Origin: Chrysoperla carnea
Taxonomy: Eukaryota > Arthropoda > Insecta > Neuroptera > Chrysopidae
Assembly (NCBI RefSeq): GCF_905475395.1
Contig: NC_058340.1
Span: 70,100,181-70,164,180 of the forward strand
Length of the DNA: 64,000 bases
Direction: 5' to 3'
Shown: piece by piece, positions 3,337 through 23,756 of the stretch
Layout: every line of letters begins with the position of its first letter
Position numbering within the stretch: position 1 is the stretch's first letter
Notes under the pieces: model-generated
The model's input: only the letters and a program-made list of their open reading frames with translations
Told to the model about the DNA's origin: nothing
The model's database searches: none
Program-made: the position numbers and the translations under genes

Positions 3337-6300
3337 CTATTTTGGTGAAATTCTTTTTTGGTATAAAGCATTTGCTTTCGATTTTATTTCGATGTTGTCG
3401 TAGTCTATGGAATTTAATTTATGAAAAGTATTTGTAAGATAATAGGTCAGTGAGATGTGAACATAGTATGGAATCAACCATATAAGGAAGTGGGTGTGAT
3501 TCGATTGTTTGGAGAGTACAGAAAGAAGAATCACTCTCCCTTCAGTTTTTTTTAGAAATATAGCATCTAGGACAGTTAAAGAAACTGGGAAATGATATCG
3601 CAGACCATTTGCTAGTTTTTAATAATTATTTAAATAGACTCCCTGCCAAATTGTACCAGTCGACTTCCGCCCTTTTCCCATACAAAAAACTCATCATTTC
3701 CCTTCTTTTTATCCCGCCCCTTTTGTCGTCGTCCTTTCTTTACCCAAAATTTTTTTGTATACTGAGTCCATGCGCCCTTTAATTACGCGCTGCCTGTATG
3801 CTTGTAGAATGGTTTATTCTCATAAACCTCCTAGTCTTATATTCATTACCGTGGTTCCTACTATTCTTATAGATCCCCTATTATAATTTCGCTGCTGTAG
3901 ACCCCTTTTGACTTCGTATCGATCACTTTGGGAATGATTGAGTTAGAGGAACATTTTGGACTTGCTTCAGTACTAGAAGAGTTGATTTGACTCCCCATTC
4001 TTATGGCTTCCTGGTACAAGAATTGTATGCGGTTAAAACAGGTAAGTCGAAGGTTCACTCCATATTATGTCTGGAGCTAATTGATAATTTTACCGTATTA
4101 CACCCAGAAGCTTGAAGTTTGTCATAACCATGTAAGATGGAGTCTGCCATTGTGTTGAGAATATGAGCGTGTTATTCAAATATGTCAATATACTGAAAAT
4201 AATAAATCTTTATTAAATATTTTCCACAAGACTTGCTCATTCGAACAGTTTGAGAACATGCTCGAACAGTTTGAAGTTGTCTGAAAAACGGTTGGATGAA
4301 TCAAGATGAGAAATATATTCCGCAAAAATAAACGCCACTTTTTCATTAAAAAAAATACATAATATTTGCGGGCATTTAACTTTGTTACCCTTAACTCTTG
4401 GACTCTACCAAGGTTCATTTTAAGGGTAAAAAAATGAATTTAAAGATCTTGGTCAGGGCGTCATATATTTTGTAAACATTTCCTTTGCAGGAATGCACTA
4501 TATCGATTATGAGCGAGCTCATACTCCGACTCGCATTTGGACGATTTTCGAGTGGCTGTGCCGTGCCCATCACCTTTTTTGAGGGCTGGATCCGCGCCTG
4601 AAACAGGCCAGAGTTCAATGGTTAAAAACTTACTTGTTCCAAGAATATATTTCGCTAAAACCAATTGTCGATGTATATTTGCCTTCAATTATATCATCGA
4701 TTGTTTTTTTATTATCGTACGAAAATGCAGTTGTGTAATATCTTGTAAGTAGGATTATAATTAGCAGCATACTTATGTGTATTATGAAATCATATTGTAT
4801 TATTCGATACAAGTTAAATTGTTTTTCTTTCTCTTCTAAAATCTTTATAAGAGTCGAAGATTTTACTTAGAAAAGCCTTCAAATATAAACATATACCAAG
4901 ATCGCTAAGCATATCGTTTTCTAAACACAACTTCAATCTATTTTTTCCGATTACTTTTCCGACTCTATGGATTATTTACGGTAATTAAGACCCAAAACTT
5001 AAAAAAAACCAACTAACTTTCCGATTTGATTAGTTTTTCGATATATTTTCGAGATTTCTTGTTCAGTAATTTGGTTGTGAAATGTAACTCTTTTTTTCTG
5101 TTATTAGCAATCTAGGTTTTGAATAGATCGATGTTATCTTATCTTACCGTTTGTAATTCTGTTGATATAGATTGAAACATATCTCTCTTTAAAAATTTCT
5201 TCTTTAATTTTTTTCCTGTCCATTTTTCGGAATTCTTTTGACTTACGTCTACATTAATGTTACAAAATCGTTCATTATGAACGTCCTATAATCAATTTGA
5301 TCAATTTTCAGAATCAACAAAAATTGGAGTTTGAATATTTAAGACTTTTGTACAAACCTTACTGATAAATTTCCAAAAAATAAATCGAATTAAAACATAC
5401 AATGGCTCTAATATTAAAATATCTAATAATAAAATTTCAAAATATATTAAAATAAAAACGTAACTACTTCGTGTATCGAAATCTTTTCCAAATATCGTCA
5501 ATAATATAAGACATGTTGCACTAATAAGGACATAAATTGACCTGTAGAAATTATTTTTGTATTAGAATTAAAAGACTTACACTCCAATTTGACAAAAAGG
5601 GAAAATATTAAATGTCTTTACTTGTATAGATTTTTTGACAACATGCCCGAAACAAAAGGGAATCTGTGAAAAAGGTCTTTGTGTATAAGAAATATACTAT
5701 TAAATGTCTCTTTGCGTGCTTGTGAACAGTAGCAGTACAATAGTAGCAATACTAGTATCTTTCTTATACACATTGTTTAATGTATATGTACTCTCTCACA
5801 CTCATTGATGGTTTATTGATGTTCCCAAATCAGTTATCGCGTGTATGAACAGACGAATTAATGGAAAGCAAGGCATGTTTTTACGATCAATATTTCAAAC
5901 AACTACAAATTCTAAGCGAGATTTCCCCGCAAATAACTTCCCAAGAAAACTTTTCAAATTTTACATTTACAAAATAAAATTGTTTTCTTAACTGATCGAA
6001 ATTTTTACTTACCATCCAATTATTCTACCCACGTATCCAAATTCATATAAAGGTGCACTAAGTTTTGGATCATAATTATTAAACATTGAGTAATTATAAC
6101 GTTCGATAGGATCTATATTCGAATTTCTAAAAAATGCGAAACAAAGTGTTTTATGTCTTCGAATATATAGGGCATGAAGCATATAGGAAGGAGAACGATC
6201 GCTATAGAAAATATTGTCCCCGAAATATGGATAAAATAAGTGAGGCGCTGCGATCAATACGTAGTATCAATAAAAGCGGGCTGTTGTGCGCTAATTTCAA

Positions 6301-9300
6301 ATGATATATCAATTTGTACATTATGCTAACAACAACAGCTAACTTCACAGATACTACTTCTTGATGACAGCGCGGCTGATGGCTTAAAAATGAACTATAA
6401 ATTCTACAAATTTTTAGGGACAGGTACGCTAATGCTTTAGTACATAGCGATCTTTCTCCTGTTCTATAACCTTCATGATATAGGGTGTATGCCGAAATAT
6501 ACACCAGTATACTGACCAGTGTTGCACATAACCTATAAAATATATTATGACATATTGCCATCATTATAATTAAATATGCTATAATATATTTTATAGGTTA
6601 TGTGTCACACTGGGCAGTATATTGGTGTATATTTTGGAATACACCCATTTTGACGTCATGAACAAAAGAATATGGCGGACATAGGATGTCAAAACATTTA
6701 TGATGTCATAAAAAATTCAATATGGTGGCATATTTTAAAACACAAATAAAATGTATTGTCAAAATCATTATTTTTTCTGGTACTTGGGTTATTTTTTGCA
6801 AAAACTGAACTTACTTTAAAAGATAACAAACCATTTGAACAATACTAAATGATAAAATTAACGATTTACTGCCAATTAAAAGTGCATTAGTTAAAGATAT
6901 TGCTTTTACATTAAATTTTACACGATTTTGTAATAAAATTGTTATAGACATTGCCAGTAATAACATTGTAAATATTGTAAAAACTTTAATTTTCCGAGAA
7001 AATGCATGCGTATGTTCTCTTATAAACATTCCAAACCATAAATGATGTACAGTAAAATCTTCACTTAATTCTTTAAGTAATGATGTTTTTTTAGTCACAT
7101 GTTGTTTATGTGTTAAAAATAATTTTGTATGACCATCAAAATGAATCAAACTAAACCATTTTTCTACAATAAATGTCCATTCTAACATTGCCAGATAATC
7201 GCGTACAATTATTTTTTCACATTTCCTAGAAATATTTTTTAGTTAAAAACGTATTATTTTTCGATTGGAAAATGTTTTTTTTTTACTCATACCAAGATGG
7301 TGAATATCCTCTGAAATCTGTCCATAGTTTGATGGCTTTTATGTGACCTAAAGGTTTCTCAGTCATGATAACAAACCAATCAATTGATCCTTTACGAAAA
7401 ATTCTTTTATTATTGTTGATTCCAAATAAAACATGATGCTAAATAATTTAGAAATTATAAATATCAGAAAATATGTAATGACTTGCTCATTTAGGTAAAA
7501 TTAAGCCGATTATTTCTATCATATTGTGAAGATATTTTTATCATATTAACCTTTTGGGTTGGCAAAGCTACTTCGCTTGGTATATAATAGGTTTTGGAGG
7601 TACAAATTTCCAATTCTTATATTTTGACTATAACGTACGTTGAACTTGAATGTTATGCAACGAACGTACCACGAGGAGTAAGGTTATTGAAGACGTTAAT
7701 AATAACGATTTTTTTTGATTATATTAAGACCGGGAGAGCGCGAACGCAGTCCCGACTACCAAAAATTACACGTCCGAGTTATCCACATTAGGGATAATCG
7801 CAAGGGTCAGCCTAACCGTAGTGCAATGGAAAGCCTCGCCCTGGGGGAACCGCCTTGTTGATCACGGTAACCCCTACGCCAGGTAAGTATGATTGGGTTA
7901 ACAAAGTTTTATTACTTATATCACCGACTTCATCAAACTGCTTGTGAGAGGAACAATAATTTTATACAATTTCTGACATTAAATACCATAAATAGATGCT
8001 ATCTTTCTTTATACAGCCTGTAAGTGTGCACCCATGTTAGTGTTGAACAGAGTGAAACAGCTTTACTAGATTTGGTGGATCTTAAATCATCTATTTTATA
8101 TTTCTTTCTCTGTTATTTGGTCTTTCCTTCTCTACTTGGGTCAACCTATTTTGACAACTTCACAAAGTTAAAATTTACTGTTGTGTACTTTCTTGATATT
8201 TTTAAGTGTGAGTCCCTGAGTTCCTAGTTTGTCGAGACTATTTTTCGATTTTTTTTACTGAATAATGTAATCATAATTTACTTTGCTATCATAAGAAGTA
8301 CCATATAATTTTATTCCCACATGTGATGTAGTTCCAGAATCACTATCGAGAGCTGTTACCACCACAATAATATAAATGTATGTATCTTGGGATTCATTGG
8401 ATAAAACAAATATAGGTTTTATCTAAATTTACACAAAATTTATGTCAAAACAGTAAATTCCATAATGAAATTAAATGATCTTTTAAAGTTCCTAACGATT
8501 TTGTTTACCTGTTTGGGGTCTTGTGAATCCAATTTGTATGCAATTATGAAAAATAATAGAAATATTAACGAAGTTATGGCTGTGGCATATGGAATGATAT
8601 TACGTTTATCTGATTGATAAGTAAAATCTAATTTTATTACACCATAAATATTTGTTTCCAATGAGAAAAATCTAGCTGAAAATAAATTTCCTTCTAAACT
8701 ATTACATTCACAGTGAAATTTTCGTGTCGTTTGATTCAAATGAAATTTCTACAAAAACAAAAAATACAATTTAGAAAATTTTCCGAGAAAAGATTTTCGA
8801 TATTAATCAAGTTAGTATCGTTTCCGATTGCTTTATACCTGGCATCCTGAATTATATTCTGATGAAATTGGATTCCATACCAAACAATCCACAGAGTAAA
8901 CAACGAATTTATATGGTATTTTCGATGTTTCCTTATTCTAATATCGAAAATATTAAGTCTTAATATTAAAAAGGTTTTTTTGTAATAATCGAATTATCTT
9001 CACATACCAAGGGTATAATTGAAATAAATAACTTCCTTTCGGTTAATACATTTTCTGGTAATTCATAATTATATGTGGAATTATTTTCATCTAATACGAT
9101 TGCAGAGGAAATAAAATCACTTAATTCTGGGTTTTTATCCAATTGCATTACTACCTAAATATTTGTAAGAAAAGAATAGTGTTTTGGATTAAATTTCCCT
9201 TGTTAAGAGAGTGTAGTGTCCCCACTAAATTAAATTCTAGAACGCTATTATTATGGTATAAGAAGACGGTATAAGGTCGATCTTCACTCATCTGACAACC

Positions 9301-12300
9301 AGGTGAGGTAGGTATATTTAGTATGAAATTTTGAAAAATTTAAACATTTCTATCATAGATTTTCTGTCGACAACAGTGTCCTGGGCTTTAGAATTTATTG
9401 AGGTGCCTCGTATATATTTTTAACTTCCCGCTAAGAAAATAGGGAAGTTATTGTTTTCACCCCGTTTTGCCAAAATCGAGTTTTCATCAGATCTCGACGT
9501 TTTAAGGTATCAGGAATCTTCCCTGACTACTTCCGCGAGGGTGTCTGTATGGCTGTATGTATGTATGAGTGTGTGTGTATGTAAACCTCTCATAACTTTT
9601 GAACGGCTTGTCCGATTTGATCGCGGTTGGTGTCATTCGAAAGGGTTTGACCAAACTTAGATTTTGAGGCCTATTTGGACCGATTCGAACCGATAGATTT
9701 TGAGAAATCTCAAAAAAACTGCAAAAAAAAGTTTTTTTTTAAGTGATTTTTTTTTTAATAACTTTTAAACGGCTGTATCGACCAATTCCAAAAACTAATC
9801 AGCTCTCAACATCAAAAAATCACGTCGATCATCACCAGTCCGGTCAAAATCGGTTGATTCGTTCGTGAGTTATCGTTGACGAAAAAAACCCAAAAAAGCG
9901 AGTGGTATGACATAGATAAAATTTTTTACACGTTATGAGTCAATACTTAGCGGGAAGTTACAGGGATGACCGGCAGGGTCATCCGTTTTCCAAATTTTTT
10001 TTGATTAATATTAGACCGGGAGAGCGCGAACGCAGTCCCGACTACCAAAAATTACGCGCCCGAGTTATCCACATTAGGGATAATCGCAAGGGTCAGCCTA
10101 ACCGTAGTGCAATGGAAAAGCCTCGCCCTGGGGGAACCGCCTTGTTGATCACGGTAACCCCTACGCCAGGTAAGTATGATTTGGTTAACAAAGTTTTACT
10201 ACTTATATCACAGACTTCATCAAACTACTTGTGAGAGGAAGAACAACTTTTTTAAAATATACGGTACACGAATACATCGTCCATCTCTGTTTATATTATT
10301 TAAAGACACATAACTTCCTTGTCGTACATGATTTTTTCAATAATATCATTGTGGACACGGAATTTCATAATAAAAATTTAATACCTGTAATGAATCGTTC
10401 AATAATGATTGACTAAAATCAATAATTAAATATTTCGATGTGTTTTCATTGATTAAAATGACATGTGAATATAAATATCGATCGTCATATACATTTAATG
10501 CAATATCAGACGTTGTAAATATATCAATTTTTGATATATCATATTCAAAAATAAAATTTCCATTCACAGTATTTTCGGAATTCCGTGTATGCTCGGTTAA
10601 TTTTAATCGTGTTTTATTATTTTTCTCTTTTGATTCGTCCGAAGAATAGTAATAATCAACGGTAGCTAATATACCAACACTTAAACTATCTTCGACTGTT
10701 ATGAACCACCAAAATGGATTACTTTCGAAAGCAATTATCTAAAATATAATCAAATTTTCTATAAATTAAAAGGTTTAAAGGGTATTTTTTGTTTATTAAG
10801 TTAGAATTTTTCACCCTGTGTATTAAATTGGTCGCTTCCAGTTTTATTCATTTTAGTCGTAGAAACGGAACACGGTTTTCGGCAATCGACAATTTTCTAC
10901 GACTATTTAGAATTTTAGGTACAATAATTTTGTTTAGTCTATACTTTAATTTTGTTATCGAATATGTTTCTATTGACTCAATTTGTACAATATATAAAGT
11001 CACCCGTTTGAAATCTTCGATTTTTTTACCCCCTCGATAATTTAGAAAGAGTTTAACATAGCAATATTCAGTCCCTAAACCCTATGTACTTTAACTGTAG
11101 TTGTTATGGAGTCCGGTTTATTCTGAGTATCATGTCACAAAGGCCCAAAAAAAATTTAACAGATTATCGACATCGTCTCTCATTTGAGACGATGTCGATA
11201 CCAATCATGTCGATGGTTGGTCTGGATTCATTTCAATAACGTTGATATCTTATATGACCTGATATTAACATTTTTTAATCTAGCTTTTAATATTTAGAGT
11301 CATTTTGATATATTTTTCATATTAAGATCGGGAGAGCGCGAACGCATTCACGAATACCAAATATTACACGTCCGAGTAACTCTCATTATGGATAATCGGA
11401 AGGATAAGCCTAACCGTGGTGCAATCAATGGAAGAGCTTCAACCTGGGGAACCACTTTGTTGATCATGGTAATCCGTACGCCAAGTATGATTTAGTGTTA
11501 GACCGTCTAAAACAAGAGATATAGTTATATATAATTAATAATCATATCTCTTATTCTAGGCGATGTACACAACAAAGTTTCACTACTTACATCACAAATT
11601 TCATCGTACTGCTTGTGAGAGGAACAATGATTGTATACAATATTTTTAAAAGCGATATCATACCATTATTTCAGCTATATTTGTTTAGATTATTTACATA
11701 CACATATAACATACTTTATTTGTGATGTATGTTAATGAATAAACACAAGCTTGTTCTTAATGTTTATTTACGCCCTTTTTACATTTATTGTCTGTAAGTT
11801 TCTTGAAGAAGGATTCAAAAAATTTACACAAACTTTGGAACAAAAAAACTAAAAGAATATTCGAAAGAATGATTCGATTAATTTTCCTCGACCAATTTTA
11901 GCAAAATTCGGTGAAATGTAGTGACGACCACTTATCGATAAGTATTAAACATGTTTTTAAGAACCTTAACAATAATTTCATTATTAACGTCCAAAGTACC
12001 AGTATAATTAAAAATAATGGTTGTATCGAATAATGTTACATTCTCTGGTGATTTCATTTGAAACATTTTAATCGATTCACGTTTAATATACGCTGATAAT
12101 TGTAATTCACTGTCAATATCATACTCATAACCGATAAATATTGGTGGCGTATATAACTTTTGGCCATTTTCTATTGTAAACGGTTCCATTAAGTCAATAA
12201 TTATATCCAATAATTTTAAGATTGTTAAAATTACGTTGTGTGTTGTACTTTGATACTACAAAATAAGAAAAATTTTAATTAAATATCAAGGATTTTCATT

Positions 12301-15300
12301 TTTATGTCCAGGGAATCATCTACCATTAATCGTAAATCGTCTATTTGTCTTTTATATATCGAGAATGTCTCATACGACGGTTCATTTTCATTCAAATTTT
12401 TATCGGATACTATTCGAATTTCATCTTTGGTATTTTGTTGAATAAATGAAGTCGTATAATCTTCATTTGTAGGAGGTATTTTGAGAAATTGTGTTGCTGG
12501 TCGTAAAATTGTTGTAATCACTTCCAAAATCGGTCTAGATTGAAAAAGAGTTTATTAGAATATTGTTTTTCGAAACTTGTTATTTTTTGGTGTATTTTAA
12601 TAAAAAAAGAGTGTCTTAATGGAGAGCTAAAAATGATTTAACAGAATTAAAAGAAAATGCTTCGAACGATTTGCAGAAAGCTAAGATGGCTGTTTCTTTA
12701 GCTCGATCTTTCGCATTATTAAAAGGCGGGACCTTCAATGGATCCTTGCGATTCGTGCATTTAAAAATGATCCAAAAATTGCAGTAAATACATGAATTAA
12801 AACTTACTCAATTAACTCAAAAACATGATACATTTTGTCTTCATAGAATTTTGGTATAATTTCACTTAAATGTTGGGTTATTTTCATAATAACTTGTGTA
12901 GTTTTATTAACAATATCTGGTAAAATTGGTAATGGCTGTGAATAAATTATTTCACGTACTAACAAAATAATAGCATTTATATCATCGGGAATATCGTATT
13001 GTATCTGAAAATTTTTTTCAATTAGTGAGCGTCTAATAAGTAAGCGGGAAGCCTGTGACAGGGTTTCGAAAATTCGCATATGGAATCAATGCTATTTATA
13101 CAATAGATTCACATTATGGATGATTACGTGTGCCAGGATTAATCCAGGCAAGTATAATGTAAAATGTATATATTTTTTAATGACTAATAGTTATGATCTA
13201 GGATATATTTTTTGATTTAATTAAGACCGGGAGAGCGCGAACGCAGTCCCGACTACCAAAAATTACGCGCCCGAGTTATCCACATTAGGGATAATCGCAA
13301 GGGTCAGCCTAACCGTAGTGCAATGGAAAAGCCTCGCCCTGGGGGAACCGCCTTGTTGATCACGGTAACCCCTACGCCAGGTAAGTATGATTTTGTTAGC
13401 AAAGTTTTACTACTTATATCACAGACTTCATCATGTTGTTTGCGCGAGGAACAATAATTTTATACAATTTCTAACAGAACACATCATAGCAATATAATAG
13501 CTGTCTCTGTTTAGCATACATGCATATACTACGTATATTATTTGATGTGTTTATTATGTACCCATGTTAGTGTTGAACAAAGTCAAACTTATGCGTATTT
13601 CTATGTACTACACATATTGTCATTGCACTCATACTAAAACTGAAATCAGCAGATCTGTTCCTAAATCAAAGTCGTCAAGCTGCCATTTTGTCAGGGTTTG
13701 TCCCTGAGATATCGGAATATTTGGATAGATTTTAGTCCGTATCTCAAAAACTATTCGACCAGTCAACAAATGCACCCGATTTTTGTACTCTTTGGGTTAA
13801 AATTACCTTATATACTGAGTTTTATCGAAATTGAAAATGCGTACTCCTTTGAAAAATTCGAGAAAATTGGAAAAAAAAAATTTTGTTTTGGAATTTAATA
13901 AAACTTAGTGGATGGGGTAATTTTGACCCAAAAAGTATACAAATTAGGTTAATTTAATGAAGGGACCCATAGAAAGTTACACTGTCAGCGAGTATCATGA
14001 GCAAAACGTCATTTTCAAAAAATTTAGAATTCTCCACCGAAAATTTAAAATCCATAATATTGTGTACAAAAGGTAGGATAAGTGAGAGCTATAACGTGAT
14101 AGTCTTTGTTTTAAATAGGAGAAATTGCCCTGCAAAGCGGGCGGGTATCTACTAGTTTAATATAAGATTGATAACGACAAAATCATGATAGGCACCTTAA
14201 TGTCAATGATTTACGATACGGACGCATTGTCTCACTCCATTCAAACTTTTAGATTACTGGAAATGAGATTTCCTTTAAGAGAAAAACAACCATATGATAC
14301 TTACATCTAATAATGAATGTAAACTATTTTGTAAAAACCATTGTTTTTTATCGTTTATATATAAATTATGTTCAAGATTTGCTGATAAACCAACATGTAA
14401 TGTTTCCACTAACATAAAATGTATTTTTTGACAGATTTGTATAATTTGATTATGTCTTACATCGAAATCAATTGATGTATACTTTTCTAAGTGTCCATTG
14501 AATAAATCAATTATGTAATGTATATGTGCTAAGGGATATTTATGACGTATCAATGGTGGCCATATCTATATATTATCAAAGATTACTCTTATTAAAATTT
14601 TGTATTTAATACTAGAAAATAGAAAAATCGCACGCAAATTATCCATATTTAGCATAAAATAGTCAGTGGTTTTGGTATACATAAATTTTTTGGAGAAGGA
14701 TAAATTGTCGGGGAATACCTACTTTTGCAAATACTTTTATCATATTTTTTTTAAGACTTTACTGAGTATCGTATAAAAATTCGGGATAAATTAGACTAAA
14801 TTTCATAAAGGCGAGAATCTCTACATTTTGTTCAAATTTATTCTTTCAATTCAAATCTAGCAAAACAAGATACTTGTTTCAAAGTAATCCCAGACTTTAA
14901 GGTATTTTCAGCACTTGACAAATTTGTCCTCTTTTTTCACAGACTCAGAAAAATGATAACTGTGAGATCCCGAAAAAGCAGAATTTTTCATTTTCAAAAG
15001 CATGAAATACACGAATTTGGTGATAACTGTCAATTTATTTTTGATTAAAATTAGACCGGGAGAGCGCGAACGCAGTCCCGACTACCAAAAATTATACGCC
15101 CGAGTTATCCACATTAGGGATAATCGCAAGGGTCAGCTTAACCGTAGTGCAATGGAAAAGCCTCTCCTTGGGGGAACCGCCTTGTTGATCACGGTAACCC
15201 CTACGCCAGGTAAGTATGATTTAAAATACAAAGTTTTACTACTTATATCACAGACTTCATCAAACTGCTTGTGAGAGGAACAACAAGTTTTTTACAATAA

Positions 15301-18300
15301 CTATCTATACGGCACTAGAATGCATCGTCTATCTCTGTTTAAATTATTTAAAGACACATAACTTCTTTGTCGTACATGATCTTTTTGTGGTATTAGTTGC
15401 TATAATTGAAAGTTTTTACCTGATAATGAAAGTGTGGATTTTCTTTTGCATAGTATACACTTTTAAAAGCATCATTTTGTATTTTATAATTAATAACTGA
15501 ACGACTACTTGAAGCTGCCAATAAAACATCAGTTACATAATTTACTTGCCCATAAGCAACAACTACACCTAAACATAAAAATGACTTTACGTTTCTCAAA
15601 ACTTTTTTCCAATATTGGCTTTTTTAACAGTCCAATTATTGAAGAGGATTTCGTTACCAAAAAAGCTTAAAACTTGAGGAATATTGATAAAAGTTTTTTA
15701 TGTAAATGGTAACACTTTGGTTACACTTTCGTTTTGGTATCGAAACATCTTAAGAGGATTTTATTCGGAGAAGAAATATCGTAAAAGTACCTAATTGAAC
15801 TATTATCGTAATTATTTACCTAATTTCGAATGAATTTCATTAATTTGTTGATAAAATGTATAAGAAATTGGATATTTAAGATTTTCATTTGTATAGCATA
15901 ACGAAAAATCATCAATTGTTGCAATACCATATAAACGCATTGCTGGCAGATAACATAATGTTGATTCATGTTTATAAGAATTCATAGTTGATGGATCATC
16001 CCAAAAATCAATATCAAAATTTGCTTCACTTATATTTAAAGCTAAAATCAATCAATGGCAATAATTTCGAATAAAATATAGTACAAAAACAAGTGAAAAC
16101 AAACAATTGACTGAGTTAATTGTTGAAATACCATGTATAGACAGTGTTGATTACTCTGTCAAATTACTATACTATACAAATTGTGCATAATTTGCGCTCT
16201 CACGGGTAAACAGTGATGTTTACGAAAAAATGTTTCAAACAAAAGTTGTTTAATTTTTTATAAGGAACATTTTTTACATTTAAACTTTTGTTCTATCTCT
16301 AACGGTTTACAAGATGGGTCCTACGGAATCAAGACGCAATTGACCTATGTTGCTCATATACGAACTCGACCTCAGTGTTTACGTCCTCAGCACACTATAC
16401 AAATTTTAGCTTGATAACTCTTCGTTTTTGAGTTATCGTGATAACAAATGGACAGACGACAGACATACAGATAGACAACCGGAATTGGACTAATTTGGTG
16501 ATTTTATGAACACCTATACCAAAATTTTGTTCATAGCATCAATATTTTTAAGCGATACAAACTTGGGACTAAACTTAGTATACCTCGATATATTTCATAT
16601 CCATGGTATAAAAAGGGTGGGAATAACAAAACCAATTATGTATTATAAATATAATCGGAGAACTGGAATTGTGTTACGAACAATTCCTTGTAAAAAAATG
16701 AGTCTAGAAGGATCAATTCTATTGTTCCATACACTTACTATCTGCTTTGATATGTAATTTATGTACATTAAGAAATGTTTTTGGTTTAATTATTAAATGA
16801 TTTAATGAATAATTTGTATTCCATAAAAAGATATTTGTATCATTATATTCATATGTTTCATTATTTATATACCATTTCCAAGTTGGTAATATATCAAAAT
16901 CCCAACATTCTGTTTGGATACGTAAATGAATTATATCAAAACGATCTGCTTGAAATAAACGTTGAAGCTTGAATTCATCATTATCATATTTACTGGTTCC
17001 ACCTTCACCACAATTTTTTATACATCTAACAAGAAAAACAAATAATTTTTTAAAGCCAAGCTTTTATTGTAATAGAAAGTAGAAAATAATTTTTCTTATG
17101 AGTCATTCATACATGACTATTATTAATTGTTATTTTCTAGAAACTGATAATTCTAGAATTTTGATAAGCTTTGAAATATTGAAGGACACTAAATATATTT
17201 CTAATACCATGATAGCTCGAACGCAGTCCTGACTTCCAAAATTGACGCAATATGCGGCAGAAGAGCACCTTTATCCTGCATCCCTTTCCAATAGAGTTCT
17301 ACGTCTCTAAATCAAATGTTCTTGCCGACGACATATTCTATAATATTTTTTGATTAGAATAAGACCGGGAAAGCGCGAACGCAGTCCCGACTACCAAAAA
17401 TTATACGCCCGAGTTATCCACATTAGGGATAATCGCAAGGGTCAGCTTAACCGTAGTGCAATGGAAAAGCCTCTCCTTGGGGGAACCGCCTTGTTGATCA
17501 CGGTAACCCCTACGCCAGGTAAGTATGATTTGGTTAACCAAGTTTTACTGGTTATATCACAGGCTTCATCGTACTACTTGTGAGAGGACCAAAAATTTTA
17601 AACAATGTGTTTAAGATCTTCTCTCTCTTTCTTATATCTTCGTTTGACGATAGGTAACAAAACAAAAAAATAATAGATGTACTTACATAATAAAACCAAC
17701 TGGCATTTCAGTATTATTATGATTTCTCATTTCCAAAAATAACGGACGTGAACAATATTGAACATCATTTAATATTCGACATGTTTTAAACATAAATAAA
17801 CCATATTGATATTGATTCGAATCGGATTTTCCACTTATTGATATTTCACAACTATTAGCTGTTTCAAAGAAATAGTCAAGAATATTTATTTTATTCAAGG
17901 AGTTTGCCGTAATAAACCCACCCTGATAACAAGTATATTTCAAATGACAAAATGTAGGTCCTCACATTTTGCAAACTCAAATCCCTACAGTTCCTACTTT
18001 TTTAAAGTAGGTGGCTTTTTTATAGTAAAAGCTAGTTTCTGGATTCTCAGAAATTATTTTCTTCATTAATAATCCAACAAAACGAGATAAATTAGATAAT
18101 TAAATGCGACGATAAAGACAGTGATGGTTTAAGATTTAGATATTTTTAATTTTAATAAAATATGAGTTTGTAAATTACTTTTATGTGTTTTTTCAACATC
18201 GGATTCTTCATATTTCCATAATTTCTTAGTCCAAATACATTCTAGATTTGGATCAGGTACCATAAATTTATCAAATAAAAATGGAACACCTTTAATTTTT

Positions 18301-21300
18301 ACTTCACAATTGAATCTATAATCACTTCGATAACCACCTTGAATATAACCGAGGGGTTCTTTAAACGTATGATAACCTATCCATCCCTTTAAAAAGAAGT
18401 ATAATCTATACAAAAGTAACATCAGCTATGTAATGTACATTGCATAAAAATTATAAAAAAGAAAAAAAAATTAAGATCAATTTAAAAAGAAAAACTTACG
18501 AAGCCATATCCTTTATTAGAATTTTCTTTTAACGTCTTTGTTGTATTAGTATTATTATTTATTTTTATATCATCATAATAATCAGAATAAAGATCTTCAT
18601 TGGATTTGTTTTTCATTTGGTTTGATCGATTTATTTGATCTGCATTGAATTGTGTATTGTGTAATATTTCTTCTTCAATTTGTTTACGAATTATAAAACC
18701 ATTTTCAGAATTATTTTTATAATTGATTAAATCATTTAATTTGAATATAGTATTTGGAATAGTTTGAGTTACAAGAGGAAGTTTATCAAAACTAATAGGA
18801 TCTTAAAAAAACATTATATTGAATTTAATCTTATATGCAACTTTCATATCAAATATGTAAAAATATAATATGCATTTATTAAGTAATTTTGAATTTTAAT
18901 TGAAGTTTTAATTTCTAGTCTTTGATTTTGAAAATAATTTTTGCTAAATTGTTTATTTATAGATTTAATTAGAAGTTTAAAACACAATTCAAACTTGGAT
19001 TTACTCTAATAAATTAGACCAGTCCCGACTACCATAAATAACGCTTCTATAACGGAATTATTATACAGGCGCCTTTGTTCTGCTCCCCTTACCATTCGAG
19101 TTCTACGTCCTTTTTGCCGACGACATATTCCATAATATTTTTTGATTAGATTAAAACCGGGAGAGCGCGAACGCAGTCCCGACTACCAAAAATTATACGC
19201 CCGAGTTATCCACATTAGGGATAATCGCAAGGGTCAGCCTAACCGAAGTGCAATGGAAAAGCCTCTCCTTGGGGGAACCGCCTTGTTGATCACGGTAACC
19301 TCTACGCCAGGTAAGTATGATTTGATCAACAAAGTTTTACTACTTATATCACAGAATTCATCAAACTGCTTGTGAGAGGAACAACCATTTATTTTAAATA
19401 CTATACGGTACACGAATACATCATCTATCACTGTCTATCTTATATAAAGAGAAATACACCTCCCCTGCCGAAATATCCATGAATATTACTTTGTACTTTG
19501 ATCAAAACAAACGCAGGAATTATGAATAACCTTCTTTCGGTTAAAAAATAAGTTAATTAATTAGTCTATTCGGTTCATCGTTACAGGGAAATTTTACGGA
19601 CTATGGTCGAAAATTTGGCTCTTGGTACGTTGTGATTTACACTTTATCACTCTTGTTTGAAACCCCTATCTTCGTGATTCATCATAATTGTAATAATCTT
19701 GTCAAACAAATTATATTAATTATATAAAATTAATAATAATAAGCTGGGCAGATGTTCTTAATTTTTATTTAAAACAAACTCAGGAAGAAGTATAATTTTT
19801 GTGCTTGGATAAACTTGAGAACAATACTCTACTATTTAGATGTTTCCTTCGTTAACAAAAGGGGGTATATTTTTGGTATTATAATAAACTTTTGTAACTG
19901 AATCAGTTACCAGAACAAGCCTCTAGAACCAAATTCGACCTGGTGTTTTTTCTAAACTTTCCATTAACATTTTTGGTCACATTTTTTCGAGTTATTCAAC
20001 TTTGAAGTTGCAATATTTCAGAATGTCAAAATGATTTTTTCTACAATATACATTAATGCAATGTGTATTGCCTATATACACCATGCATTTGTGATTTTGG
20101 ACTTGTAGAAAATTTAAAACAACTGTTTAGAATATATCGAATTACTCTCTCTTGATTATTTTAAAACGATGAAAAACAAGAATAATCCTTATTTAGTAGC
20201 ATGAATTTATATAAATAATAAACACTTGTGTAAAATATTTCAAAACGTTTCTTAGTATAAAAGTAAAAATTAAATAAATAAAAAGTTAAAATTACCATAC
20301 AATGCATATTGTTTATAATCAGTTTTTGTTATAAAATTACTTGAATCCTTACAACCAGGTGGTAAAGATATAAAAGACGTTAATTTATATTCCTTATGCA
20401 AAAGTAATGGTGGAAAAAAATTACTTTTCATGCTAGACAGAGGAATCAAAAAATTATTAGACTATAAACATAAATGATTTAAAATAAAAAAAAGATTTAC
20501 TGAATAAGATAACGATATTTTATGAAATCACAACGAAATTTCAGTTAAAATTATGATTTAATTAGCACGCATTGATAAAAATTAAATCACTGATGAGTAG
20601 TATTGTCACGTCAAAGTTCCCGGCTTTATACTCACTCGCTTGCCAAAACAAATTATTCGAAGTCACTTCTAGACGTTCTAGAAAGATACGGTTTTGAATT
20701 CGACGCAGAATTGCTTAAATCTACGGGAATAATTGGAAAACTACAACTTTTTCATTGTAACCCCTCCGGAAAATCGAAAAAACATCTCCAAAAATTACGT
20801 TTATCTGTTGTATACATGCTAGACAGATGGAATTTTCATCAATCAACCCCGGAATAAAGTCAAATTAACAGAATACTTCGAAAAAATTTCATTCTTTACA
20901 TCACTATCGTCCGAAAATGGCAAAAAACACCTAAAACTACCCTAAAATTATACCTGACAGCTCCGCCACCATAAAAAATTACATCCGGTAAGCAAATACT
21001 ATCATTTTGTTTAACATTATATTGATAATACCAAGCGAATACACGATTTAATGGAATATCTTGAGTGTCAATTGTACGTGTTCGAATTTCTACAATTGCC
21101 ATACCATGACGTCGAAATGTATGATTGAATGATACCCACATTTCTTGTACTATAAAATTATTGTAACCACGGTTGATAAAAAACTCTAGATTATTTAAAA
21201 AGCATTAGAATAAATACCAATTAACTCTTTTCCCGTAAATGTTGGAATATTTTTGAACAAAATATTTTTTGGTGATTCATGCATAAAATCTAGTGGTTGA

Positions 21301-23756
21301 AAATTATACGAAACTCCTTCCACAAATACTTCGATTTCATTCACACCATTCCAGTTTATCATCGTACAAAGGTATAAGGTTTCTTGTTGTAATTTTTTCG
21401 GTTCCAAATTTAAATAAACTGCCGGATGATGCATAGGAGATAATGTACCTTTTAAGGCGAAAAAAAACAATGAAAATTTAGTAAATATTTATCTGTGTCT
21501 GAGTGTAATTTTAGAAATGAGACTTAAACGATGTTTTTATAAAAAAATTCGTAAATTACAGTAGAATCTCGATAAGTTAAAGTCCAAGGGAAACACAAAA
21601 TATTTTAAGTTATAGAGGTTTTAAGTTATCAAGTGTCTATGTTAGGTAAAGGTTAATATAGAGGTATGTACATGTTTCTATGTACCCTAGTTAATATAGA
21701 GGTATGTACATGTTTCTATGTAGTTACTGAGGGCCTATACAGAGATTATTTATTTAAGTTATAGAGGTTGCGTCTTTTAAGTTATAGAGGTTTTGGGCTC
21801 TGATGGGAAGGGAACATAGTATTTTTTGAAGTAACAGAGGTTTTTATGTTACCGAGGTTTAAGTTATCGAGATTCTACTGTATATTATAATTAAACTAGT
21901 AAGCCCGTGCAAAATTCCGCAGTGTGGTACCTGGGGCTAAAATCAGGCTTGAAAAATAATATATAAGTGATACAAAAATAATTACAGTAACTTGTACTTC
22001 CTTTTCATTGTGTATAGGCAATTTTATTACGGATATGATATACAAATCACGTACTGAACAAAATTATACCTTTTAAATGAATAGTAAATCATGAAATTTG
22101 TTAAAGAAATAAGAAATGAACTAATTAGGTGATTTGATGAACACCTATATACCAAAATTTTGTTCCTAGAATCAATATTTCTAAGCGTTACATACATGGG
22201 ACTAAACTTAGTATACCTTGACATATATTACACATATATACAGGGTATAACAATGCCTATGAGAAAATAATTGTTATCGGAAAGAATTCACGTATCTTAA
22301 GTTTTATATTGGGTGTGTAATCTTTTTTTAAATCATCCAGTCAAAATTGTCATGGCCACTGACCATAACCGGAAGAATGCTTCATATCACTCCATTTCTT
22401 ACGAACCATAAATAATTAAGAATATATATATATAAATTATTATTTTAATTTGTCCATGCTAAGATTTTTTTATAATTTAAAATTATTCAAATATATATAT
22501 ACCCCCCCCCCCCCAATCTTTAATAATTTTGTTAAATGTCTGATGAACAATATTCTCGTCTATTCCAAAAGCTATTACTCGACTACATAACCTTTTGTAG
22601 GTGATTCAGGAGTATATTGTATAAATATTTCACTTACGTAATCCTCTGCCCAATTGACACATTTCACCCAAATTATCTTCATATGGTAAACATTCACACC
22701 AAACACCACCGAAATGAGGATGGCATTCTTTGGTACCCGGATAAAAACATGGATTACGTGTTTCACATATATCAACTGGCTTCTCACACGTAGTACCTAA
22801 AAGCAAGCAGTATTAAACTTTTAGAAGGGTAATCAAATTTGATGAAATTTCAATTGATTTGCTGAAGTTTTGGGTGTAGCAATGTCACCTATGCAAAAAA
22901 AAACCGGTGATTTCGGAAAAATCAACGATTTTCCACGTTTATTTCAGAATGTTATAAAAACATGTTAACAGCTAGAAGTTTTGATCAAAAAAGTAAAAAA
23001 AAAATCTGGTTAATTTAAAGATTGACTAGTTTTGGAAATATCATCGAAAAATTCTGTACAAAAAACTTTTATTTTCGATCGATTTTAGAAATATTCCGAA
23101 AAATACTTAACTAATAGTTGATTAAATATCATTTTTATGTTTCTTGGATTCTGATAAAACATAAATAATCCAAGATATGAAAATTTTGTGATTTTGCAAT
23201 CAACTGAAGAAATTATTGCGGCAACGAATTTAATCGTTATCCCAAAAACAAATCCTCAAAAGAATTGCTTCGATTTCTGTAATTTTGTTTAAAATTACTG
23301 TAGCAAAATGATTTTGATCCAACTTGACGATAATTTTCCAGGAGAAAGTTGGTAAACTTAATTAAAACCACAAAAGAAATTCTCCACAAGAGTTATTTAC
23401 CAATGAATGGATAAGAAAATCGGTGAAAAATCAGTCTCACCTTCATAATACTGTTTATAACATTCACAATATACATGAAAATCATCTTCATCAATTTTAC
23501 AAATACCACGTCCACCGCAAGTATCATCTGAACATTTTGTTACATTTAATAATGGATTGTTTATGATCTCTGTAATTAATAGATCATCATTTGGATCAGT
23601 TATTTGATTCTTTGGATCTATAATTGATGTAGCATTTGATGGATCTGTAATTGATGTACTATTATTTAATGTATGAACACCATTATTTATTAAAAAATAA
23701 TTATATAATAATAATATTATTAATAATATTAGATTATTTTTAAAAAGATAAAACAT
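1510..23756 (-). CDS. Polycystin-1-like receptor/channel protein, whole gene (about 28 exons)
   Basis: Coding exons read from splice sites and matching phases, 5' to 3': 23756-23441, 22796-22638, 21448-21218, 21149-20954, 20433-20296, 18801-18500, 18386-18179, 17960-17687, 17025-16739, 16041-15820, 15568-15420, 14565-14305, 13004-12808, 12534-12324, 12255-11965, 10738-10385, 9154-9008, 8937-8839, 8748-8509, 8422-8282, 7438-7293, 7225-6815, 6126-6013, 5541-5358, 4842-4634, a gap, 3336-3178, 3112-2886, 2301-1510. This gives about 2,220 residues. Domain order (EGF, REJ-like, GAIN/GPS, membrane segment 1, PLAT, polycystin channel) is that of PKD1/lov-1 proteins, large cell-surface proteins that join PKD2-type channels, often in cilia. 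The joins at 18179/17960 are weak, and at least one exon between 4634 and 3336 is not found. All other exon phases agree, which argues for a living gene. AATAAA lies just past the stop, near 1470. Confidence 0.9.
2380..2835. repeat. Direct repeat pair, about 145 bp each, in a polycystin-like gene intron
   Basis: The block GACGTCATCA(G/A)AATCC through TTAAATTTTGCTCTATCACA to CTACTAAATTTGGGTCA occurs at about 2379-2520 and again at 2687-2835, roughly 308 bases apart and same orientation. The unit between holds unrelated AT-rich DNA. The repeat reaches into the DNA next to the last exon's acceptor, where it lengthens the open frame without being coding. Confidence 0.8.
4634..6126 (-). CDS. Polycystin-1-like gene: middle membrane segments (exons 23-25)
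   Basis: Exon 6126-6013 (APLYEFGYVGRIIGW) joins by a split Trp codon to 5541-5358, which encodes two helices. The second helix contains LLLDILILEPLYVLIRF, matching the family pattern of a helix ending in QP-(L/I)-K-(V/I)-LL. Exon 4842-4634 starts with a charged linker and encodes the next helix (FIIHISMLLIIILLTRYY), followed by the start of the extracellular polycystin loop with FSEIYSW. Splice sites are canonical (GTAAGT at 6012, GTTTGT at 5357, GTAAGT at 4633). Confidence 0.82.
6483..6646. mobile_element. MITE with 70-bp inverted arms
   Basis: The left arm from GGGTGTATGCCGAAATATAC and the right arm ending GTATATTTTGGAATACACCC are reverse complements over about 70 bases with roughly one mismatch in seven. 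They include ACATAACCTATAAAATATAT near the centre. Total length is 164. No clear target-site duplication is visible. It lies in a polycystin-like gene intron. Confidence 0.75.
6815..8422 (-). CDS. Polycystin-1-like gene: PLAT/LH2 domain and second membrane segment (exons 20-22)
   Basis: Three exons in phase encode a PLAT domain: YIYIIVVVTALDSDSGTTSH (first strand, 8422-8282); GSIDWFVIMTEKPLGHIKAI then KLWTDFRGYSPSW (7438-7293); and KCEKIIVRDYLA then FIVEKWFSL (7225-6815). LG-x-I-x-x-W-D-x-x-G-x-x-PSW followed by IIVRD and F-x-V-E-KW is the signature of the polycystin-1 PLAT domain, which lies on the cytoplasmic side and binds lipid or protein. The last exon continues with the family's post-PLAT stretch, ending in two hydrophobic helices. 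A U1 snRNA copy lies in the intron between 8282 and 7438. Confidence 0.9.
7729..7890 (-). ncRNA. U1: U1 spliceosomal snRNA, copy 1 (class A, one base short)
   Basis: Read on the minus strand from 7890, the RNA begins ATACTTACCTGG, the 5' splice-site recognition sequence of U1. It then shows stem-loop I, the stem-loop II loop ATTGCACTACG (U1A site), the Sm site AATTTTTGG near 7759-7766, and stem-loop IV containing CTGCGTTCGCGCT. Length is 162, one A fewer than its sisters in the stem II arm (GGCTTTCC instead of GGCTTTTCC). It lies in the intron between exons ending 8282 and starting 7438. A conserved upstream block at 7931-7954 is in the place of a snRNA proximal sequence element. U1 snRNP defines 5' splice sites. 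Confidence 0.93.
7891..7954 (-). promoter_or_regulatory. snRNA promoter region (PSE-like block) of U1 copy 1; same block at the other copies
   Basis: About 64 bases upstream of the U1 start are conserved in all seven copies although neighbouring intron DNA is not. The outer part (minus strand GTTCCTCTCACAAGCAGTTT then GATGAAG) spans about -64 to -41, where insect snRNA genes carry the proximal sequence element bound by SNAPc. A second conserved run, GTGATATAAGTAGTAAAAC, lies nearer the start. Equivalent outer blocks: 10218-10240, 11602-11625, 13428-13451, 15258-15281, 17567-17589, 19359-19382. Assignment as a PSE is inference from position and conservation. Confidence 0.7.
8509..10738 (-). 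CDS. Polycystin-1-like gene: GAIN region, GPS site and first membrane segment (exons 16-19)
   Basis: Exon 10738-10385 encodes 118 residues of beta-rich sequence expected of a GAIN fold, and 9154-9008 continues it. The GPS motif is split over 8937-8839 (CLVWNP then SGCQ) and 8748-8509 (FHCECNSLEG). The four GPS cysteines and both flanking positions are present. After CNSLEGNLFSARF the exon encodes a membrane segment around IPYATAITSLIFLLFFIIAY, the first of the polycystin-1 helices. In this family the GPS is the autoproteolysis site. Here the residues usually HL/T at the cut are SLEG, so cleavage cannot be assumed. Confidence 0.85.
9421..9960. mobile_element. TA-flanked MITE with ACTTCCCGCTAAG ends
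   Basis: Perfect 15-base inverted ends TAACTTCCCGCTAAG / CTTAGCGGGAAGTTA bound 540 bases with no coding capacity. The outer TA on each side fits the TA target duplication of the Tc1/mariner superfamily. It sits about 55 bases from the 3' end of U1 copy 2. Open frames inside are chance. Confidence 0.82.
10015..10177 (-). ncRNA. U1: U1 spliceosomal snRNA, copy 2 (class A, full length)
   Basis: A 163-base RNA from 10177 down, with 5' ATACTTACCTGGCG, loop II ATTGCACTACG, Sm site AATTTTTGG and an intact 3' stem-loop. No break is visible. It is class A by GGGCGAGGC after stem I. The upstream block at 10218-10240 matches the sister genes, and the shared flank continues to about 10350, close to the host exon ending at 10385. 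On its 3' side the gene lies about 55 bases from a TA-flanked MITE (9421-9960). The antisense strand is open and reads IRPGERERSPDYQKL, but this is not a protein. Confidence 0.95.
11327..11488 (-). pseudogene. U1 snRNA pseudogene, copy 3
   Basis: Similar to the other copies over its whole length but damaged. Four bases are missing from the 5' splice-site recognition end (ATACTTGGCG instead of ATACTTACCTGGCG). The Sm site reads AATATTTGG instead of AATTTTTGG. The stem II region has a three-base insertion and several substitutions. The promoter-like flank is interrupted by a palindromic insert at about 11499-11570, and the conserved upstream block reappears at 11602-11625. It sits in the intron between exons ending 11965 and starting 10738. 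It cannot pair with 5' splice sites normally, so it is a dead copy. Confidence 0.9.
11499..11570. mobile_element. Short palindromic insert in the promoter of the dead U1 copy 3
   Basis: About 70 bases absent from the other six U1 upstream regions. It has imperfect inverted ends ACCGTCTAAAACAAGAGATA / TATCTCTTATTCTAGGCGAT and a TA-rich centre. It separates the U1 start from the conserved upstream block, pushing the block from about -41 to about -114. Confidence 0.65.
11965..21448 (-). CDS. Polycystin-1-like gene: extracellular REJ-like region (exons 3-15)
   Basis: Thirteen exons in consistent phase encode the large ectodomain. The exon at 17025-16739 carries CIKNCGEGG and later ECWDF with several Trp residues, the cysteine and tryptophan pattern of REJ (receptor for egg jelly) modules found in PKD1 proteins. 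Exons at 15568-15420 and 14565-14305 encode a helical, low-cysteine stretch typical of the later part of REJ regions. The exon at 18801-18500 encodes an Asn/Lys/Asp-rich linker without recognisable fold. The exon pair 18386-18179 and 17960-17687 is the least certain join; an alternative acceptor gives 17922. U1 snRNA copies lie in several of the introns here. Confidence 0.72.
13226..13388 (-). ncRNA. U1: U1 spliceosomal snRNA, copy 4 (class A, full length)
   Basis: A 163-base copy whose RNA region matches copy 2 in every place I compared, including GGGCGAGGC, GGGCGCGTAATTTTTGG and the 3' stem-loop. The upstream block at 13428-13451 differs from its sisters (TGATGAAG kept, but CGCGCAAACAACA in place of CTCACAAGCAGTT). 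A further 170 bases of upstream flank resemble copy 1, ending in CCCATGTTAGTGTTGAAC at 13560 (8030 in copy 1). It lies in the intron between exons ending 14305 and starting 13004. Confidence 0.95.
15055..15217 (-). ncRNA. U1: U1 spliceosomal snRNA, copy 5 (class B, full length)
   Basis: A 163-base copy with the standard U1 5' end, loop II and Sm site. Class B: the stretch after stem I is AAGGAGAGGC instead of AGGGCGAGGC, and the base of stem II reads AAGC instead of AGGC, changes that keep pairing. The upstream block is at 15258-15281. The flank shared with copy 2 runs on through ATTATTTAAAGACACATAAC to about 15380, near the host exon ending at 15420. Intron between exons ending 15420 and starting 14565. 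Confidence 0.95.
16105..16610. repeat. Dispersed repeat family R, copy 1
   Basis: The stretch from TTGACTGAGTTAATTGTTGA through TTTGAGTTATCGTGATAACA, a GACAGACGACAGACATACAG run and TTAGGTGATTTTATGAAC-type sequence to ACTTGGGACTAAACTTAGTA recurs at about 22128-22250 (end part only), 43500-43990 and 45070-45570. No protein is recognisable. Similar short interspersed sequences are widespread in insect genomes. The class is not clear from the sequence. Copy in a polycystin-like gene intron. Confidence 0.75.
17205..17250 (-). pseudogene. U1 snRNA 3'-end fragment beside copy 6
   Basis: On the plus strand the sequence AGCTCGAACGCAGTCCTGAC followed by TTCCAAAATTGACGC is a diverged copy of the antisense of the U1 3' stem-loop and Sm site. 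The rest of the gene is absent. It is followed by about 95 bases (ATAGAGTTCTACGTC, GCCGACGACATATTC) that recur beside copy 7, so fragment and gene were duplicated together. Confidence 0.7.
17364..17526 (-). ncRNA. U1: U1 spliceosomal snRNA, copy 6 (class B, full length)
   Basis: A 163-base class B copy, like copy 5 except for one change in the 3' stem-loop (GCGCTTTCCCGG against GCGCTCTCCCGG, as in vertebrate U1). The upstream block at 17567-17589 is the most diverged of the intact copies. On the 3' side lies an older U1 fragment (17205-17250), and the DNA between is shared with copy 7. It lies in the short intron between exons ending 17687 and starting 17025, leaving about 160 bases between U1 start and host exon. 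Confidence 0.94.
19014..19055 (-). pseudogene. U1 snRNA 3'-end fragment beside copy 7
   Basis: Plus-strand TTAGACCAGTCCCGACTACC followed by ATAAATAACGC matches the antisense of the U1 Sm site and 3' stem-loop, with the GGGAGAGCGCGAACG part lost. The following CATTCGAGTTCTACGTC and GCCGACGACATATTC match the flank beside the copy 6 fragment. Confidence 0.68.
19156..19318 (-). ncRNA. U1: U1 spliceosomal snRNA, copy 7 (class B, full length)
   Basis: A 163-base class B copy. It differs from copy 5 by GTAGAGGTTACC in stem I, ATTGCACTTCG in loop II (outside the invariant ATTGCAC) and CCGGTTTT at the 3' end. The upstream block is at 19359-19382. The flank TATACGGTACACGAATACAT is shared with copy 2. 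An older U1 fragment (19014-19055) follows on the 3' side in the same arrangement as for copy 6. It lies in the intron between exons ending 20296 and starting 18801. Confidence 0.94.
21559..21880. mobile_element. pogo/Tigger-like MITE
   Basis: Ends CAGTAGAATCTCGATAAGTT and AACTTATCGAGATTCTACTG (right end shown with one change) are inverted and flanked by TA on both sides, the end type and target duplication of pogo/Tigger Tc1-mariner elements. Length is 322. Inside, a 38-base unit around TTAATATAGAGGTATGTACA is tandemly doubled at about 21652-21722. No transposase. Intron of the polycystin-like gene. Confidence 0.85.
22128..22250. repeat. Dispersed repeat family R, end fragment
   Basis: Contains TTAGGTGATTTGATGAACAC, then AAATTTTGTTCCTAGAATCA, then CATGGGACTAAACTTAGTAT, the same end as the copy at 16105-16610. 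Confidence 0.7.
22638..23756 (-). CDS. Polycystin-1-like gene: signal peptide and two EGF-like units (exons 1-2)
   Basis: The first exon (23756-23441) opens with MFYLFKNNLILLIILLLY, a lysine followed by a long hydrophobic run, which reads as a signal peptide. A Thr/Asn/Asp-rich linker follows. The exon then starts an EGF-like unit (CSDDTCGGRGICK, then VYCECYKQYYEG). Splicing with a split Gly codon to 22796-22638 completes its last cysteine (TTCEK) and adds a second cysteine-rich unit with CETRNPC, ECHPHF and WCECLPYE. The donor is GTGAGA at 23440 and the acceptor is TTTTAG before 22796. The start codon is the only in-frame Met ahead of the hydrophobic stretch. Confidence 0.85.

Follow-up and report, generated by a model that had tools for sequence, protein, structure and literature searches.

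U1 snRNA gene copies dispersed over seven introns of a polycystin-1-like gene in the lacewing Chrysoperla carnea

Small nuclear RNA (snRNA) genes can form tandem arrays with concerted evolution, as in RNU2. They are also known to move, and their spread is seldom caught in the act. Paralogues of small nucleolar RNA (snoRNA) genes in different introns of one host gene are well described (PMC8178906, PMC2653536). Here, we describe seven copies of the snRNA U1, which splicing requires, that lie in seven introns of a single polycystin-1-like gene on chromosome 4 of Chrysoperla carnea, within an analysed stretch of 64 kb (C4:70100181-70164180; hereafter the window, in which positions are counted from its first base). 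All window features located below are on the minus strand. A literature search, which most subscription papers lay outside, turned up no account of U1 genes spread across multiple introns of a single host. We consider it likely that the locus is a dispersed U1 cluster nested in the polycystin-1-like gene, comprising six independently promoted U1 genes, one dead copy and two relics, and that it grew by short DNA duplications.

In the window, a cmscan search found exactly seven matches to RF00003 that exceed the gathering score; each lies on the minus strand and spans the whole model (positions 1-166). We counted differences, inserted bases included, against the commonest genomic U1 form, shared at 163 of 163 bases by six copies that lie beyond the window on three chromosomes. 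Six window copies differ from it at 1-7 positions and score 147.2-154.5 bits. Copy 1 (7729-7890; 147.2 bits) has four differences (T59 deleted, G119A, C122T and A156C), and copies 2 (10015-10177) and 4 (13226-13388), at 152.8 bits each, carry A156C only. Copy 5 (15055-15217; 153.7 bits) has G50A, C53A, G80A, C122T, G123A and A156C; copy 6 (17364-17526; 154.5 bits) is the same variant with A156T instead, and has the top score among the 19 U1 matches found in the genome. Copy 7 (19156-19318; 149.3 bits) has seven differences, including G50A, C53A, C122T and G123A. The 5' end ACUUACCUG, which pairs with 5' splice sites, and the Sm site are the same in these six copies, whose RNA bodies agree at 156-163 of 162-163 positions. 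Judged from their sequence, the six look intact and are apparently working U1 genes. Copy 3 (11327-11492) reaches 74 bits, the cut-off being 69.5, has 35 differences and is predicted to be a dead U1, a pseudogene in which the end that recognises 5' splice sites, ACTTACCTG, is lost and the promoter element is displaced. The first-pass annotation, which had listed seven U1 snRNA copies, is therefore right as to seven Rfam matches and wrong if these are read as seven live genes.

That annotation had also given each copy an upstream block of its own, and for the six intact copies we found a promoter-like element at -60 (copy 1, 7929-7950, CTCTCACAAGCAGTTTGATGAA; copy 2, 10216-10237; copy 4, 13427-13448, with two mismatches in its first seven bases; copy 5, 15256-15277; copy 6, 17565-17586; copy 7, 19357-19378). 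The best match to CTCTCAC falls exactly at -60 in 16 of the 19 genomic U1 copies, the six intact window copies among them. In 13 of the 19, CTCTCAC is matched with one mismatch or none at -60 to -62, as happens in 2.2% of random placements. Outside the window, C1:58258080 has its best match at -60 with three mismatches, and C2:78877503 has a two-mismatch match at -62 only. At the same stringency of one mismatch, the motif occurs in eight of 15 U2 loci (sampled from 46 hits), five times at -61 and three times at -49, and in seven of ten U6 loci (sampled from 16 hits), at -63 or -64. We take the -60 element to be the proximal sequence element of snRNA genes; its common position is measured and the name is presumed. 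Because this element recurs at U1 copies elsewhere and U2 and U6 genes have a related one, the intact window copies should be transcribed independently of the host. Copy 3 departs from this arrangement. Its element (11600-11621, within an nhmmer match at 11563-11641) stands 129 bp from 11492 instead of 60, a net displacement of 69 bp, and a partly palindromic insertion (11495-11570; edges approximate, set by eye) lies between element and RNA. Nothing better than four mismatches to CTCTCAC was found near -60 in this copy.

An A-rich block resembling AATCAAAAA follows the RNA in most genomic U1 copies, as judged by eye, and is a candidate 3' box. These flanks bear on two other explanations. One holds that the U1 RNAs are processed from spliced host introns, and the sense orientation of all seven copies, with one full copy per intron, does resemble intronic snoRNAs. 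However, each intact copy has the -60 element found at most U1 copies on other chromosomes, and the A-rich block after the RNA is likewise that of U1 genes on other chromosomes; we consider such dependence improbable. The other explanation, RNA-mediated retroposition of U1 transcripts, could draw on the A-rich stretch and on the fact that U1 retropseudogenes are common in mammals. Since a similar block follows most U1 copies genome-wide, it is no tail, and what was copied reaches past the RNA start into upstream sequence, as far as about 160 bp in copies 2, 5 and 7. Retroposition is disfavoured for the six intact copies because of this common upstream sequence, and we give it very little probability.

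The host stretch (7288-20437) was modelled as polycystin-1-like from joined exons, splice sites, a PLAT domain and similarity to PDB entries. Its exons are 20437-20296, 18801-18500, 18386-18179, 17960(or 17922)-17687, 17025-16739, 16041-15820, 15568-15420, 14565-14305, 13004-12808, 12534-12324, 12255-11965, 10738-10385, 9154-9008, 8748-8509, 8422-8282 and 7438-7288. The outer ends 20437 and 7288 are set without splice verification, and the gene probably extends past the modelled stretch at both sides. All seven U1-bearing introns have a GT donor, an AG acceptor and compatible phases (phases compared by eye): 7439-8281 (843 bp, copy 1), 9155-10384 (1230 bp, copy 2), 10739-11964 (1226 bp, copy 3), 13005-14304 (1300 bp, copy 4), 14566-15419 (854 bp, copy 5), 17026-17686 (661 bp, copy 6) and 18802-20295 (1494 bp, copy 7). 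Joining the exons over the introns of copies 1-6 gives an open frame of 962 residues with no stop, and joining those over the copy-7 intron gives one of 148 residues, also with no stop. The intron that links these two blocks allows 30 in-frame splice choices, among which acceptor 17960 is the best by our own score. The host matches Pfam PLAT (E 1e-10), a domain that the copy-1 intron splits, and Polycystin-1 chains in PDB (E 1.6e-18, residues 214-429 of a 481-residue query). In the modelled 1316 residues, PLAT alone was found at E 0.1, with no curated match to REJ, GPS or channel domains; we use the name polycystin-1-like because PLAT is the sole Pfam domain in the host model. The open reading frame at 1510-2439 had no Pfam match. 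A whole-genome PLAT search gave no match, even at the window's own intron-split PLAT domain, and so is uninformative. Taken together, the frames that join across introns, the polycystin-1 similarity and the splice-site check confirm what the first-pass annotation had proposed, namely seven U1 matches in seven separate introns of one host gene, all on the host strand.

Three of the host introns also hold other sequences. The intron 16042-16738, which carries no U1, owes its length to a repeat (16071-16615) that recurs many times elsewhere in the window and in the fetched loci (45 BLAST pieces). The copy-2 intron contains an apparent transposon-like insert (9422-9959) flanked by AACTTCCCGCTAAG and its reverse complement. 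The copy-4 intron contains a repeat (13704-13960) with 94.6% identity over 130 bp to positions 9211-9339 of L012, a fetched locus on the same chromosome that is described below.

Scanning of 13 introns on both strands (26 tests, 200 shuffles) revealed two sense relics of the U1 3' end. One lies in the copy-6 intron at 17211-17248, with an nhmmer match over 17198-17248 (E 3e-6), and the other in the copy-7 intron at 19020-19044 (nhmmer E 0.034); for neither did any of the 200 shuffles reach the score. The earlier statement that no intron holds two copies is thus true of full copies and fails once these relics are counted. That they neighbour copies 6 and 7 and point the same way suggests tandem duplication within an intron. 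If seven insertions landed at random in the 16 modelled introns in proportion to intron length, the chance that no two share an intron would be P 0.075 or 0.088, so one full copy per intron needs no rule. A third candidate relic in the copy-4 intron (about 13107-13155), plausible by eye, was rejected (nhmmer E 6; the intron's best sense match reached by 16 of 200 shuffles), and a weak U1 match in the copy-5 intron (14623-14657; 2 of 200 shuffles) is not claimed given the 26 tests.

In self-BLAST of 5000-22500, the regions around the U1 units showed homology, and five further pairs were short or repeat-like. No repeats between modelled host exons appeared in this DNA comparison, and the claim that the intervening exons were left uncopied holds at the DNA level. 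The spacing of 1.3-2.3 kb between neighbouring copies would suit tandem duplication of units made of an exon plus an intron, with later divergence or loss of the exons. We rejected this explanation for lack of exon repeats at the DNA level and regard it as highly improbable; the exon translations also differ by eye, with no protein-level search made. Among eight copy pairs compared, five share single aligned blocks of 309-383 positions (copies 2-5, 355; 2-7, 336; 5-7, 323; 6-7, 383 with the relic included; 1-4, 309). Copies 1 and 2 share 266 positions, and copy 3 shares two shorter blocks with copy 4 and two with copy 1. The blocks stop inside introns, and no homology of the ends of the U1 introns to one another was found.

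The behaviour of intron ends also bears on whole-intron transposition, in which U1-bearing introns would be copied as introns by reverse splicing. This would account jointly for the sense orientation, the single copy per intron and the absence of exon copies, and copies 2 and 5 do start at similar distances past their donors (207 and 202 nucleotides (nt)). However, the homology between these two copies starts 47 and 34 nt past the respective donors, and the stretch before it matches no better than shuffles (837 of 2000 as high). When the first 60 and last 80 nt of 14 introns were compared pairwise, no pair of U1-bearing introns came within the cut-off of 15 of 300; six pairs with at least one U1-free intron did, one of them at 0 of 300. 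Tested on intron ends, transposition of whole introns thus found no support, and we hold it to be very unlikely. As a separate observation, four U1 copies (those in introns 9155-10384, 14566-15419 and 17026-17686, and the one in L012) begin 160-207 nt past the host donor.

Short duplications at the DNA level, the explanation that we prefer, find support in the flanks, which are local. A search of the genome (559,487,470 bases, 337 contigs) with the copy-1 upstream block matched upstream of every window copy but copy 6 (six of seven, counting itself), at the U1 copy C4:70256839 and at one orphan place on C2. The orphan (L047, C2:20200411-20200457) resembles a U1 upstream block, and the surrounding 3 kb yielded no Rfam family. 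A block further upstream of copy 7 matched itself and copy 2 only. Upstream of -85, 12 of the 15 pairs of intact copies are at 36-49% identity. Additionally, the body of copy 2 is identical to that of copy 4, and the flank upstream of it resembles copy 5 most. Upstream sites place copy 2 with copy 5 over copy 4 by 42 to 6, and sites in the body plus 3' box by 5 to 7 (p 0.002 by Fisher's test, among six such comparisons of which four were under 0.01), an incongruence that suggests gene conversion.

The same genome contains at least 19 U1 matches: seven in the window, four at C4:5.57-5.59 Mb, a further one at C4:70256839(+), and seven elsewhere. Of the 18 matches above 119 bits found (a lower bound), six are the intact window copies. 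The four copies at C4:5.57-5.59 Mb lie on strands -,+,-,-; three of them (C4:5.586-5.591 Mb), on mixed strands between kinesin exons and an FHA-domain exon, are probably intergenic. The copy at C4:70256839(+) (L012:4437-5002, which is C4:70256436-70257001) starts 178 nt past the likely donor of a PH-domain exon (+), and exons of an oxysterol-binding protein (+) follow 18.6 kb downstream. We infer that these exons form one gene, and the copy is probably intronic and sense in an oxysterol-binding-protein-related gene. A peritrophin gene lies near C1:97281062, and a possible signal-peptide start stands between its large exon and the U1 there, so that this U1 is probably not intronic. For other snRNAs, C3:34789761-34831814 holds ten U6 matches in 42 kb. 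Nine lie on the + strand, nine reach the top score, and none of the eight loci inspected by eye showed clear coding exons. Four U2-family hits (L030, L031, L034 and L035) start with GTATCTTTT rather than ATCGCTTCTCGG and have no -60 element match under three mismatches; these could represent variants, pseudogenes or a different RNA.

Read in reverse complement, the U1 5' end gives CAGGTAAGTAT, which is a perfect 5' splice site. The exact sequence occurs six times on the two strands of the 64-kb window, each time on the antisense strand of one of the six intact copies, and it fits better than the 15 scored native host donors, the best of which matches at 9 of 11 positions. Selection against antisense copies is reasonable because a reversed copy would give the host pre-mRNA a perfect 5' splice site, and avoidance of such a site is a plausible cause of the sense orientation. 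The earlier suggestion that orientation could protect the host pre-mRNA can thus be put concretely, in that an antisense U1 5' end is an exact donor; that this drove the bias would be our interpretation. The chance of seven copies on one strand is 2 x 0.5^7 = 0.016 if the copies are independent, and they probably are not.

Several points weigh against a working, locally grown cluster shaped by selection. The orientation rests on few independent events and would also be inherited by local copying, which makes it weak evidence. The support for function from retained base pairs is mild as well, the changes being mostly transitions. On the basis of 42 of the 49 predicted pairs, the changes in copies 5 and 6 touch three pairs and leave them all intact, copies 1 and 7 break one each and copy 3 breaks eight of 13 touched pairs, and a standard pair is retained at a paired site by 18% of random substitutions and by 56% of transitions. 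Two of the six comparisons of body and flank are not significant (p 0.29 and 0.22), and A156C, found in most window copies, occurs also in C4:53942818. In trees of 17 of the 19 U1 copies (copy 3 and C2:78877503 left out; 200 bootstrap trees), the six window rows fall on one side of a branch in 2% of bootstrap trees for promoter plus RNA and in 0% for promoter alone. A single clade of window copies is not rejected by the approximately unbiased (AU) test (p 0.41 and 0.128), and the promoters of copies 2, 5 and 7 group together (95/97). Finally, neither target-site duplication nor clear microhomology that would point to a mechanism was seen by eye at the block ends.

We propose that the cluster most probably grew by repeated short duplications at the DNA level within the host gene, each duplicated piece being a few hundred bases with promoter, RNA and 3' end. 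Copies that landed in exons would disrupt the protein and be lost, leaving intronic survivors. Copies opposed to the host would place CAGGTAAGTAT in the pre-mRNA, and selection may have eliminated them, leaving sense survivors. Purifying selection and gene conversion would keep the RNA bodies alike while the flanks drift. In this scheme we infer transcription from each promoter, the duplication mechanism and the selective reason for the orientation. A bolder proposal is that the U1 gene is a short-range copying element confined to one gene, limited by its own product to sense intronic copies, so that its dispersal is policed by splicing. We regard this as tentative and rather unlikely. If true, U1 dispersal would be governed by splicing, since the reversed 5' end is an ideal 5' splice site. 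The testable rule on offer is that intronic U1 genes should be sense, since an antisense copy makes a perfect donor. One gene that holds intact, dead and partial U1 units split by unique exons also makes duplication, decay and conversion traceable copy by copy.

Compared with known systems, the lacewing locus resembles RNU2 arrays in its homogenised bodies, whereas its units are split by unique exons and introns and form no regular tandem array. Insects have multi-copy U1 genes, such as the five of Drosophila melanogaster, which, like the copies described here, comprise several genes with isoforms a few bases apart; the parts of those accounts that we could draw on (PMC10645366, PMC4291461) describe no spread through the introns of one host. 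The LU snRNA of Drosophila, with its host gene fas2, pairs an snRNA gene with a protein-coding host, as here (PMC4053861), and it is one gene in one host, in contrast to the multi-intron U1 family of the lacewing. The closest likeness in arrangement is to cis-duplication of box C/D snoRNAs, in which paralogues likewise occupy several introns of one gene, at the lacewing locus in host orientation. Unlike these snoRNAs, which come mostly from host introns, the intact lacewing U1 copies each have a promoter-like element of their own.

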